A stretch of DNA of 64,000 nucleotides, from assembly GCF_000215955.2 (NCBI RefSeq), contig NZ_AFNV02000014.1:1-64000 (forward strand). Reading direction: 5' to 3'. The notes under the pieces were generated by a model that ran no database searches, was not told the origin of the DNA, and saw only the letters and a list, made by a program, of their open reading frames with translations. The position numbers and the translations under genes were made by a program. Each line of letters opens with the position of its first letter. The stretch's first letter is position 1. Of this stretch, positions 27,260-30,146 are shown one piece after another. This DNA is from Salinisphaera shabanensis E1L3A (GTDB taxonomy: Bacteria > Pseudomonadota > Gammaproteobacteria > Nevskiales > Salinisphaeraceae).

Positions 27260-28054
27260 TTAGGAATGCCGACGTGCGAGCCAGTCGAGTTCGTTTTCGG
27301 AGAACTTGGCTTGGCGACGCGCCGGGAAGTTGTACGGTCCCGGCGGACCGCCGTTCATATATTCGTCGAGTAGCTGGGTGAACGTGCTGTCCGGGTCGAG
27401 CCCGCGTGGCTCGGCGCAGTAGCGAAACCAGCGCGTGCCGATTTCGACATGGGGCACTTCTTCTTCAAGAATCACTTCGAGGATGGCCACGGTCTCGCTG
27501 TCGCCGGCCTGGCGCAGTTTCTCGATCATGCCGGGCGTGACATCCAGCCCGCGGGCTTCGAGTACACGCGGCACCAACGCCATACGGATCATCACGTCGT
27601 GTGCGGTTTTCACCGCCATTTCCCATAAGCCGTTATGGGCATCGAAATCGCCGTAGGTGAAACCGTAGTCGGCCAGGCGGTTGTTGAGCATTTCGAAATG
27701 TCGCGACTCGTCGGCGGCCAGACTCAGCCAGTCGGCATAGAACGCCGCCGGCATGCCGCGAAAGCGATACGCCGCATCGAGCCCGAGATTGATCGCATTG
27801 AATTCGATATGGGCGATCGCGTGAATCAATGCTGCCCGGCCGGCTGGCTTGCCGAGCCCGCGCTTGGCGAGTTTGGCCGGATGCACCAGTGCGGGCGCAT
27901 CCGGTCGGCCGGGAACAATAACGGCCTCGGGCGTACCGCGCGCCTCGGCAAGCGCCGAACTGTCGCCTGCGTGCAGCGCGCGTGTCGCCGCGCATTTCTG
28001 CGCGGGGTCACGCATCATCAGCGCGGCATGGACGTCGTCGATTTGCACGATCAC
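27260..28054 (-). CDS. DUF455 family ferritin-like protein
   Basis: 264 residues of the DUF455 family. Helices with ExxH patterns typical of a di-iron four-helix bundle are visible: AIAHIEFNAINLGLD, ADESRHFEMLN and ILEEEVPHVEIG. Related proteins include MiaE-like hydroxylases; the substrate of this family is unknown. It starts at GTG overlapping the stop of metZ (GTGA), so it is probably translated from the metZ mRNA and therefore under the same control. Confidence 0.85.
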   Translation of the reverse strand: MIVQIDDVHAALMMRDPAQKCAATRALHAGDSSALAEARGTPEAVIVPGRPDAPALVHPAKLAKRGLGKPAGRAALIHAIAHIEFNAINLGLDAAYRFRGMPAAFYADWLSLAADESRHFEMLNNRLADYGFTYGDFDAHNGLWEMAVKTAHDVMIRMALVPRVLEARGLDVTPGMIEKLRQAGDSETVAILEVILEEEVPHVEIGTRWFRYCAEPRGLDPDSTFTQLLDEYMNGGPPGPYNFPARRQAKFSENELDWLARRHS

Positions 28055-29238
28055 TCCAGCCCGCGTGCAAGATCGGCGATGATGTCTTCGACGTTCTCCA
28101 GCCCGACCGAAATACGGATCACGCCGTCGGTAATTCCCGCACGCGCACGATCCTCGGCTGAGATGCGCGCATGCGTGGTACTGGCCGGATGTACGATCGT
28201 CGTACGCGTATCGCCAAGATTCGCCGTGATCGACAGCATTTTCGTACTGTTGATCAGCTTGAACGCGGCCTCGCGCCCACCAGCGACCCGCAACGACAAC
28301 ACGCTGCCGAAGCCGCCCGGCTGCTGACGCGCGGCGAGCTCGTGCTGTGCATGCGATGCCAGCCCCGGATAGTAGACATGCTCCACGCCGGGCTGGTCAT
28401 CGAGCCATTCGGCCACGCGCTGGGCGGAGCGACAATGGGCCTGCATACGCACTTCCAGTGTTTCCAGGGCCTTGTAGAACACCCAGGCATTGAACGGACT
28501 CATCGTCGGCCCGCAGGTACGCAGAAAGCGAAACACCTTGTCACCTACGATATCGGCATCGCCAACAACGGCGCCGCCGAGCGCTCGGCCCTGCCCGTCC
28601 AGAAACTTCGTCGCCGAGTGCGTAACGACATGGGCACCGAAATCGAGCGGGCGTTGCAAGGCGGGCGTACAGAAACAGTTGTCGACCACCAACAGAGCGT
28701 CGTTGTCGTTGGCGATCTCGGCAAGGGCCGCCATGTCGACGATTTCGGTCAACGGATTGGACGGCGTTTCCACGAACAACATCCGGGTGGCCGGCGTGAT
28801 CGCGGCCTTCCAGGCCTCGACATCTTCAGGCGGGACGTAGCTTGTAGTCATGCCGAGCTTGGACAGATAGTTGTTGAACATGCCGATCGTGGAGCCGAAC
28901 AGCGTATGCGCCGCCACGATATGGTCGCCGGCCTCGAGCGTGGCCAGACAGGTCGCCAGAATCGCGGACATGCCGGACGCCGTCGCCACACAGCACTCAC
29001 CGCCTTCCATCGCTGCCAGACGCTTGGAAAAGGCATCGACCGTGGGGTTGGTGAAGCGCGAATAGATATTACCCGGTGCATCACCGGCAAAGCGCTCGGC
29101 GCACTCTTCAGCCGATTCGAACACGAAGCTCGACGTCATATAGATCGCGTTGCTGTGCTCGCCTTCCGGCGTACGGTGCGTGCCGGCCCGTACGCCACGC
29201 GTAGCGGTACCCCAGCTTTCGTCGAAATCATCGGTCAT
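28051..29238 (-). CDS. metZ: O-succinylhomoserine sulfhydrylase
   Basis: 395 residues from ATG 29238, which has GGAG about eight bases ahead. Cys/Met metabolism PLP enzyme: PLP lysine in SATKFLDGQG, the phosphate-binding YSRFTNPT and SGMSAI. MetZ makes homocysteine directly from O-succinylhomoserine and sulfide, the route used in Pseudomonas. The frame is open 17 codons upstream, but that part overlaps the terminator hairpin of the leader. The leader looks like a SAM-II riboswitch, so repression by SAM is expected. The DUF455 gene overlaps its end. Confidence 0.94.
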   Translation of the reverse strand: MTDDFDESWGTATRGVRAGTHRTPEGEHSNAIYMTSSFVFESAEECAERFAGDAPGNIYSRFTNPTVDAFSKRLAAMEGGECCVATASGMSAILATCLATLEAGDHIVAAHTLFGSTIGMFNNYLSKLGMTTSYVPPEDVEAWKAAITPATRMLFVETPSNPLTEIVDMAALAEIANDNDALLVVDNCFCTPALQRPLDFGAHVVTHSATKFLDGQGRALGGAVVGDADIVGDKVFRFLRTCGPTMSPFNAWVFYKALETLEVRMQAHCRSAQRVAEWLDDQPGVEHVYYPGLASHAQHELAARQQPGGFGSVLSLRVAGGREAAFKLINSTKMLSITANLGDTRTTIVHPASTTHARISAEDRARAGITDGVIRISVGLENVEDIIADLARGLE

Positions 29239-29269
29239 AAAAAATCTCCAGGCAGGCGGTTTCGGGCAT

Positions 29270-29300
29270 AAAAAAACCCGCAGTCGCAATGCGATGCAGG
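29270..29300 (-). terminator. intrinsic terminator in the metZ leader (attenuator)
   Basis: Minus strand CCTGCA-TCGC (29300-29291) pairs with GCGA (29287-29284) and TGCGGG (29282-29277) across a 3-base loop with one bulged C, followed by seven T residues (29276-29270). It lies between the metZ promoter and start codon, 31 bases before the ATG, so it can act as an attenuator controlled by the riboswitch upstream. It could also stop read-through from the NYN gene. Confidence 0.85.
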
Positions 29301-29315
29301 CTTGCTGTCCCTCGA

Positions 29316-29364
29316 CCGTTTAGCGGAATTTATAGGGCGCCCGCAAGCTGTTACAAATCGGCGC
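29316..29364 (-). promoter_or_regulatory. SAM-II-like riboswitch in the metZ leader
   Basis: The minus strand shows a stem GCGCC (29364-29360) with GGCGC (29341-29337) enclosing an 18-base loop that opens with GATTT and has TTGC (29346-29343). Then come ATAAAT (29333-29328) and GCTAAA (29324-29319). The order, spacing and these conserved words match the SAM-II pseudoknot riboswitch known upstream of met genes, mainly in alphaproteobacteria. It begins within a few bases of the predicted transcription start and is followed 15 bases later by a terminator. SAM binding is inferred; the pseudoknot pairing was judged by eye and not computed. Confidence 0.72.
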
Positions 29365-29370
29365 GCATGC

Positions 29371-29399
29371 ATTATGAAGCGATTGGCTCCGATCGGCAA
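29371..29399 (-). promoter_or_regulatory. sigma-70 type promoter of metZ
   Basis: TTGCCG (29399-29394) and CATAAT (29376-29371) are separated by exactly 17 bases on the minus strand. Transcription would start about 29364, at the first base of the riboswitch stem. The promoter begins 13 bases after the stop of the NYN gene. Confidence 0.7.
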
Positions 29400-29411
29400 C
29401 CATATCGGCGT

Positions 29412-30146
29412 TTACCTCTCCAACCGCTGCGTACCACTTATCCGGACGTAATAAACGGCTGTACCGGAGCCTGAATCGTCGCGCCTGTCTTCTACTTCGA
29501 CGTACGTCAAAGCGTGTACCAGCTGCCCCAGTTTTTGATAACCGTAATTGCGAGCGTCGAAAGAGGGATCGTTCTTGTTGACTTGACTACCAACCGCAGA
29601 CAGGGAGGCCCAGCCGTCCTCTTTGGAAACAGCGCTAATAGCCGACTCCATTAAGCGGCGTAAATCGACGTTCTTCGATTCGTCGCTGATCGAAATAAGC
29701 TCTGCGGCACTTAGAATTTCGGTATAAACAAAGCGATCACAGGCAGAAACGAATGCTCGAGGTGTCTTCTTTTCACCGAATCCGTAGACGGTCAAGCCGG
29801 ATTCCCGAATTCGGGTCGCCAAGCGCGTAAAGTCGCTATCCGATGAAACTAGGACGAATCCGTCAAGATGCCCCTGGTGCAGTAAATCCATGGCGTCGAT
29901 AATCAACGCAGAATCAGTCGCATTTTTGCCGCTTGTATACCGAAACTGCTGAATCGGCTGGATAGCGTGCTCGTTAAGTTGCTCTTTCCAACCTCTCAGA
30001 TGTTCTGTAGTCCAGTCTCCGTAAGCACGTTTTACGCTCGCTAATCCGAACGAGGCAACTTCGCTAAGCAGTTCGGTACAACGCAGTGCCTGCGCGTTGT
30101 CGGCATCAATCAGTACTGCAAGTTTGTCGTACCGATCAACGACCAT
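29412..30146 (-). CDS. NYN (LabA-like PIN) domain protein with C-terminal OST-HTH/LOTUS domain
   Basis: 244 residues. The N-terminal NYN domain (about 5-150) has the acidic nuclease residues: D14 and D16 in IDADN, D78 in NATDSALI, and D103/D105 in SSDSDF. The C-terminal part (about 165-235) fits an OST-HTH/LOTUS RNA-binding domain (LRRLMESAISAV, then DARNYGYQKLGQLV). Such proteins are predicted metal-dependent RNases; no target is known. AGGTG precedes the ATG at good spacing. The gene is visibly lower in GC and uses A/T-ending codons more than its neighbours. It interrupts the usual purF-metZ adjacency, which suggests acquisition by transfer. Confidence 0.85.
   Translation of the reverse strand: MVVDRYDKLAVLIDADNAQALRCTELLSEVASFGLASVKRAYGDWTTEHLRGWKEQLNEHAIQPIQQFRYTSGKNATDSALIIDAMDLLHQGHLDGFVLVSSDSDFTRLATRIRESGLTVYGFGEKKTPRAFVSACDRFVYTEILSAAELISISDESKNVDLRRLMESAISAVSKEDGWASLSAVGSQVNKNDPSFDARNYGYQKLGQLVHALTYVEVEDRRDDSGSGTAVYYVRISGTQRLER

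Follow-up and report, generated by a model that had tools for sequence, protein, structure and literature searches.

We analysed a 64,000-nucleotide stretch of Salinisphaera shabanensis DNA (the window), in which metZ and a DUF455 gene lie one behind the other on the minus strand. The GTGA overlap between them, pointed out in the first-pass annotation, is present in the sequence and, judged by these four shared bases, the DUF455 gene probably belongs to the same operon as metZ. purF and the metZ leader are separated by a gene whose product has NYN and OST-HTH/LOTUS domains (29412–30146, minus strand); in several relatives, unlike in the window, purF lies directly 5' of the switch.

The leader contains, all on the minus strand, the elements that had been read from it before, i.e. 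a promoter, a GC-rich stem, a loop with GATTT and TTGC, the motifs ATAAAT and GCTAAA, and a terminator, and each was found where it had been placed. For the coordinates see Table 1. The two promoter hexamers are spaced by 17 nt, match the consensus at nine of twelve positions and form the sole promoter-like pair within the 801 bases scanned; shuffled sequence gives a mean of 0.6 pairs in the same scan. A CATAAT or CATACT box occurs 6–11 nt 5' of stem P1 in 13 of 15 related leaders. Within the loop of P1, GATTT corresponds to the third strand of the SAM-II pocket and CTTGC to the 5' strand of P2, and the hexamer GCTTGC (29348–29343) is also the predicted antiterminator strand. TATAAAT (29334–29328) and GCTAAA (29324–29319) are both located 3' of stem P1. 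The terminator hairpin has a calculated energy of −15.9 kcal/mol and is joined to seven T; a simple scan for terminators gives a single site of this kind in the leader, compared with a mean of 1.0 in shuffled sequence. The folding energy of the leader is ordinary (z = −0.26), which is what a pseudoknot-blind method would give.

Table 1. Features of the metZ leader and of the genes downstream, in window coordinates.
Feature	Positions	Strand	Basis or remark
−35-like hexamer TTGCCG	29394..29399	-	consensus match only
−10-like hexamer CATAAT	29371..29376	-	consensus match; box shared with relatives
RF00521 (SAM_alpha) match, full model 1–79	29300..29374	-	33.7 bits (cut-off 36), E = 4.8e-6
P1 5' strand GCGCC	29360..29364	-	sequence; P1 covariation
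P1 loop, 18 nt, opens with GATTT and holds CTTGC	29342..29359	-	sequence, model alignment
P1 3' strand GGCGC	29337..29341	-	sequence; P1 covariation
L3 strand CCTATAAATTCC	29325..29336	-	relatives with hairpin P3 carry it at the start of L3; window without P3
P2 3' strand GCTAAACGG, pairs with loop TTGC	29316..29324	-	sequence, alignment
GCAAGC, complement of aptamer-loop GCTTGC; predicted antiterminator partner, overlaps terminator 5' arm	29300..29305	-	
Intrinsic terminator (hairpin 29303–29274, T tract 29276–29270)	29270..29303	-	
GGAG, likely metZ ribosome binding site	29246..29249	-	by eye
metZ, O-succinylhomoserine sulfhydrylase	28051..29238	-	similarity
DUF455 gene (PF04305), GTG start inside the GTGA overlap with metZ	27260..28054	-	

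Assignment to the SAM-II class

A search of 401 bases against 4227 Rfam families returned RF00521 as the sole family matched at E-values up to 10. A scan of all 64 kb of the window with gathering cut-offs gave zero Rfam matches. For RF00521 this cut-off is a curator's threshold, and 82 of the 106 matching genomes of the class stay below it as well. In a search of the whole genome the window copy was the top RF00521 match, with an E-value of 1.1e-5, four orders of magnitude from the runner-up at 0.19. All 14 control genomes gave a match at an E-value of 10, three did so at 0.05 and none at 0.01.

The structure was examined in an alignment (A5) built from a hand list of 43 related leaders, all with 18-nt spacing between CTTGC and GCTAA. 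In P1, changes on both sides occur at three of five pairs, and 100% of the cells are paired. The inner four pairs of P2 are formed in 43/43 leaders; being invariant, they are without covariation. The outer part of P2 is 81% paired, with one pair changed on both sides. Of the four outer pairs, which most relatives use, the window copy forms two (A29351–U29315 and C29350–G29316). Overall, 94% pairing in the real alignment compares with 32–56% in controls in which the sequences were slid. The pocket letters GATTT, TTGC and GCTAAA are invariant columns. Two results had been named in advance as together speaking against a SAM-II riboswitch, a score below the Rfam threshold and a lack of covariation: the first was indeed obtained (33.7 versus 36 bits), whereas the second was not, P1 covarying as described.

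Taken alone, the window element is an ordinary, unannotated member of the known SAM-II class. It lacks hairpin P3, as the description of SAM-II requires. Judged by profile match, covariation and pocket letters, the metZ leader is very probably a SAM-II riboswitch acting by transcription termination, most likely a SAM-responsive OFF switch upstream of metZ. The suggestion of a SAM-II-type aptamer with a terminator before metZ is thereby upheld, by the RF00521 match and by recurrence of the core in 15 of the 17 family genomes (see below). The nearest known counterpart is the SAM-II element before metZ of Sinorhizobium meliloti, which is like the window copy in the P1/P2 core, the pocket, the promoter before P1, the terminator and the metZ target; for Sinorhizobium the accessible text of PMC9373788 describes an early end of transcription at high SAM. 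Compared with RF00521, the window copy differs in its sub-cut-off score, a P1 loop three positions shorter than in the model, a short outer P2 and its gammaproteobacterial host, and its relatives differ in carrying P3.

metZ leaders in the family and hairpin P3

All 17 genomes of the family contain metZ. Comparison of the leaders in these related genomes, as proposed in the first-pass annotation, showed the core CGATTTG...CAGCTTGCGGGC...GCTAA before metZ in 15/17 when the leaders were read directly. The two genomes without it (G002 and G003) represent one other genus. RF00521 at E-values up to 0.05 finds only 5/17 genomes, none above the cut-off and one of them with its match away from metZ (L012 in G010), because of an insertion. 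A hairpin, P3, follows the 3' strand of P1 and precedes L3 in 11 of these 15 leaders. CTTGC and GCTAA are separated by 18 nt in four leaders (the window included), 30–54 nt in nine and 284–287 nt in two.

P3 itself shows changes on both sides at five of seven pairs in the nine leaders with a shorter P3. For the whole structure, we used an alignment (A1) of 13 of the 15 family leaders, the two with the long insert being left out. Its covariation score exceeds those of all 500 shuffles and of every slid version; the number of pairs changed on both sides in the same alignment was matched in 56 of the 500 shuffles and in a single slid version. According to a metZ tree, P3 must have been gained or lost at least twice on branches with good support. 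One such case is the sister pair of G011 (without P3) and G009 (with P3).

In G009 and G014, both Salinisphaera, an insert of about 265 nt is located inside P3 (L014:1142-1405 and L016:1138-1406). With 251 bases of it as query, we found nine matches in G009 and five in G014, the riboswitch copy counted in each, as well as two in G006; G000 and G011 gave none. The best further copies span query positions 14–232 and lack the outermost arms. These arms pair with each other in the riboswitch copies (31 nt, 87% complementary in L016; by eye in L014). We read the insert as a dispersed repeat that would have landed in the loop of a pre-existing P3.

Distribution across the class

The gammaproteobacterial class in the GTDB sense includes the betaproteobacteria. 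Our sample of this class comprised 274 genomes from 221 genera. RF00521 at E-values up to 0.01 matched 106 of the genomes (84 genera), with 24/274 above the cut-off. A model trained on the 43 leaders of A5 (R1) matched 133 genomes and 105 genera at E-values up to 1e-4; these E-values are rough, the training loci lie among the 274 genomes and match by construction, and R1, being limited to the 18-nt spacing, leans to copies without P3. In a check on a further set of 80 loci, 613,197 bases in total, R1 gave 80 matches at E-values up to 0.01, one per locus and at the known place.

The CTTGC–GCTAA distance is 18 nt in 53 of 57 class loci found by pattern, the others having 19, 20, 39 and 39 nt. 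After reduction of 60 class loci to one per genome and gene, 51 of the remaining 56 precede a methionine gene, assigned by similarity: metZ (38), metK (6), metF (3), metY (2), metN (1) or metX (1). In the other five the downstream gene is without a match to the methionine references, and four of these loci have a second, tandem copy. Such tandem arrangements, in which another SAM-II-like core follows the first terminator, were seen in L032, L033, L035 and L059, with next genes that likewise have no methionine-reference match; tandem SAM-II is already known. In some loci before metK or metN the loop CAGATTGC replaces CAGCTTGC (L037, L045, L051 and L052, the halomonad metN leaders L105, L139 and L141, and others). 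One genome of the class (G262) has five RF00521 matches, all above the cut-off, and seven with R1.

purF lies upstream in 25 of the 38 metZ loci. Since the element is widespread and the order purF–switch–metZ is often kept, inheritance fits better than recent horizontal transfer, which had been suggested for this locus and is not favoured here. Nor does the window copy extend the range of the class, as had been supposed: gammaproteobacterial SAM-II elements were published between 2005 and 2009 (accessible texts of PMC1273637, 2005; PMC2258182, 2007; PMC2704228, 2009).

A search pattern with P3-length spacing yielded at least 119 stretches, 80 of which were examined as loci. Among the matches listed, they come mostly from betaproteobacteria, Halomonas/Vreelandella, Legionella and Salinisphaera; two metagenome-assembled genomes, one under the name Alistipes and the other under Alphaproteobacteria, are probably mis-binned. 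Three loci (L115, L122 and L145) are tandem copies and were excluded. Among the remaining 77, the insert folds better than 95% of its own shuffles in 53, where about four are expected, and 63 precede metX (30), metN (16), metZ (15) or metY (2). In nine halomonad leaders P3 has four of seven pairs changed on both sides, with a covariation score of 0.225 compared with at most 0.069 for slid versions. Eighteen of the P3-pattern loci, searched at the Rfam cut-offs, gave zero riboswitch matches. The strict P3 pattern was found in 7 of the 274 class genomes, one instance being a short duplication with no hairpin; the reversed pattern gave none in this sample, among the matches listed. Judged by these patterns, P3 is frequent in some groups and not class-wide. 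We are confident that the window element belongs to a beta- and gammaproteobacterial branch of SAM-II whose members appear to score no higher than the Rfam cut-off and in many cases to have P3 between P1 and L3.

RF02424 on the opposite strand

RF02424 (Bp2_287) was first seen antisense to three family leaders. In the 274 class genomes it gave 50 matches, none reaching its cut-off of 70. For 45 of these there is an overlapping RF00521 match, without exception on the opposite strand; two of the five without such an overlap carry P3. Antisense RF02424 matches were recorded at L020, L107 and L132 and at 45 class loci. Read backwards, the RF02424 consensus contains GCGUCGAUUUG, CUUGCGGACGC and CAGCUAA, i.e. 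a SAM-II core with a compensated P1. It shares these core letters with the type of element in the window and differs from it by the opposite strand and the sub-cut-off scores. RF02424 thus seems to describe the strand opposite to SAM-II, and genomes would then be annotated with an unsupported antisense RNA. In the accessible text of its source paper (PMC3521395) this 'Burkholderia sRNA' was proposed to act in cis on methionine genes. Searching part of the literature for RF02424 by text brought up no paper, and the link may have been published.

Relationship to SAM-V and to the metXZ element

According to the accessible text of PMC6061858, P3 of SAM-V stands directly after P1, and SAM-II is stated to be without P3. 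No account of a SAM-II element with P3 was found in our partial coverage of the literature. The element could be filed as SAM-V (RF01826) or as an intermediate between SAM-II and SAM-V, an assignment we regard as unlikely. Both classes share the pseudoknot pocket, the short outer P2 is as in SAM-V, and P3 has the SAM-V position, directly after P1, in the 11 family leaders that carry it. The window copy, however, has no P3, and neither the window nor the P3-bearing leaders L107 and L132 gave a SAM-V match at E-values up to 10. Furthermore, SAM-V is reported to act on translation, with the ribosome site in P2, whereas the window has a terminator platform and its likely ribosome site (GGAG, 29249–29246) is not inside the outer P2 and lies about 65 nt downstream of P2, beyond the terminator. 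A SAM-V profile search of 299 genomes of the phylum gave no match anywhere and detected no control either.

It is very improbable that the SAM-II fold senses another ligand here, e.g. S-adenosylhomocysteine, or both ligands. SAM/SAH riboswitches are likewise H-type pseudoknots (accessible text of PMC7367207), but the pocket retains GATTT, TTGC and GCTAAA, the downstream genes belong to methionine and SAM synthesis, and no SAM/SAH family matched at E-values up to 10. An accidental likeness to SAM-II, in a leader that is either constitutive with a terminator or an attenuator responding to a signal other than SAM, would agree with the ordinary folding energy and with promoter and terminator scans that taken alone are near chance, but is hardly credible in view of the Rfam E-value, the core in 15/17 relatives, the covariation and the methionine genes downstream in 51/56 class loci.

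Retaining SAM-II as the preferred assignment, we compared the P3-bearing copies with the metXZ element of betaproteobacteria. In the accessible text of Leyn et al. 2014 (PMC4239095) this is a pseudoknot with a terminator before metX or metZ, with an A-or-C consensus position and six conserved regions, of which 1 pairs with 4 and 2 with 6; it was named as new and not as SAM-II, and SAM_alpha was given only for Rhizobiales and Rhodobacterales among the genomes studied there. Our text search for metXZ and riboswitch, in partial coverage of the literature, found only this paper. The betaproteobacterial copies with P3 contain CAGMTTGC and have metX or metZ as the gene downstream, and they agree with the metXZ element in topology, genes and the A-or-C position. 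On this comparison by description, the two may be the same element.

We are inclined to think that SAM-II and SAM-V constitute one family, joined by a large beta- and gammaproteobacterial branch in which P3 comes and goes at one orthologous switch, even between sister species, and tolerates a 260-nt repeat, and that this branch has been catalogued as the metXZ element and as the wrong-strand RF02424. The branch with variable P3 appears to be new within the literature covered; a SAM-II element with a terminator before metZ, as in the window, is of a known kind. Annotation probably recognises SAM-II in no more than part of the gamma- and betaproteobacteria in which it occurs, and methionine regulation would therefore be misread there. 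Since P3, the hairpin by which SAM-II and SAM-V have been told apart, differs at a single locus between members of one genus, natural pairs of RNAs are available in which its role could be tested.

Proposed switching mechanism

Based on the leader sequence and on predicted pairings, we propose the following mechanism. At low SAM, GCUUGC of the loop would pair with GCAAGC at the base of the terminator; the terminator would thereby stay open, and metZ and the DUF455 gene could be transcribed. Once SAM is bound, the GCUUGC strand, half of it in P2, would be locked in the pseudoknot; the terminator could then fold and transcription would halt. As the loop strand holds the UUGC of P2, SAM binding and antitermination should be mutually exclusive. 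MetJ was absent from this genome in a search that detected the E. coli control.

In folding calculations at growing transcript lengths, the GCUUGC:GCAAGC helix is present for 3' ends from 29296 to 29281, and a P1-like stem and the terminator take over at 29277. The complementarity between aptamer and terminator arm in the window amounts to −14.4 kcal/mol, a high value that 27.5% of shuffled arms also reach. By eye, GCARGC occupies the antiterminator position in 7/15 related leaders, or in 11/15 if matches inside terminator 3' arms are included. A terminator is present in 14 of the 15 leaders of the Salinisphaeraceae set; hairpins of −9 kcal/mol or better were found in 14/15 family, 35/40 class and 63/77 P3-pattern leaders.

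Duplex energies were compared with those of shuffled arms for these 15, 40 and 77 leaders, the 40 class leaders being a hand list and some of the terminators counted being weak. Among leaders with a terminator, the duplex between the loop/P1 strand and the terminator arm is significant at the 5% level in 3/14, 4/37 and 2/70. For the P2 3' strand the corresponding numbers are 1/14 in the family and 15/37 and 12/70 in the wider sets. No general antiterminator rule emerges from these data: no single pairing passes across the three sets, and in this test the window case is not significant. In other members of the class, pairing between the P2 3' strand and the arm exceeds expectation (15/37), and the antiterminator partner may therefore differ by lineage.
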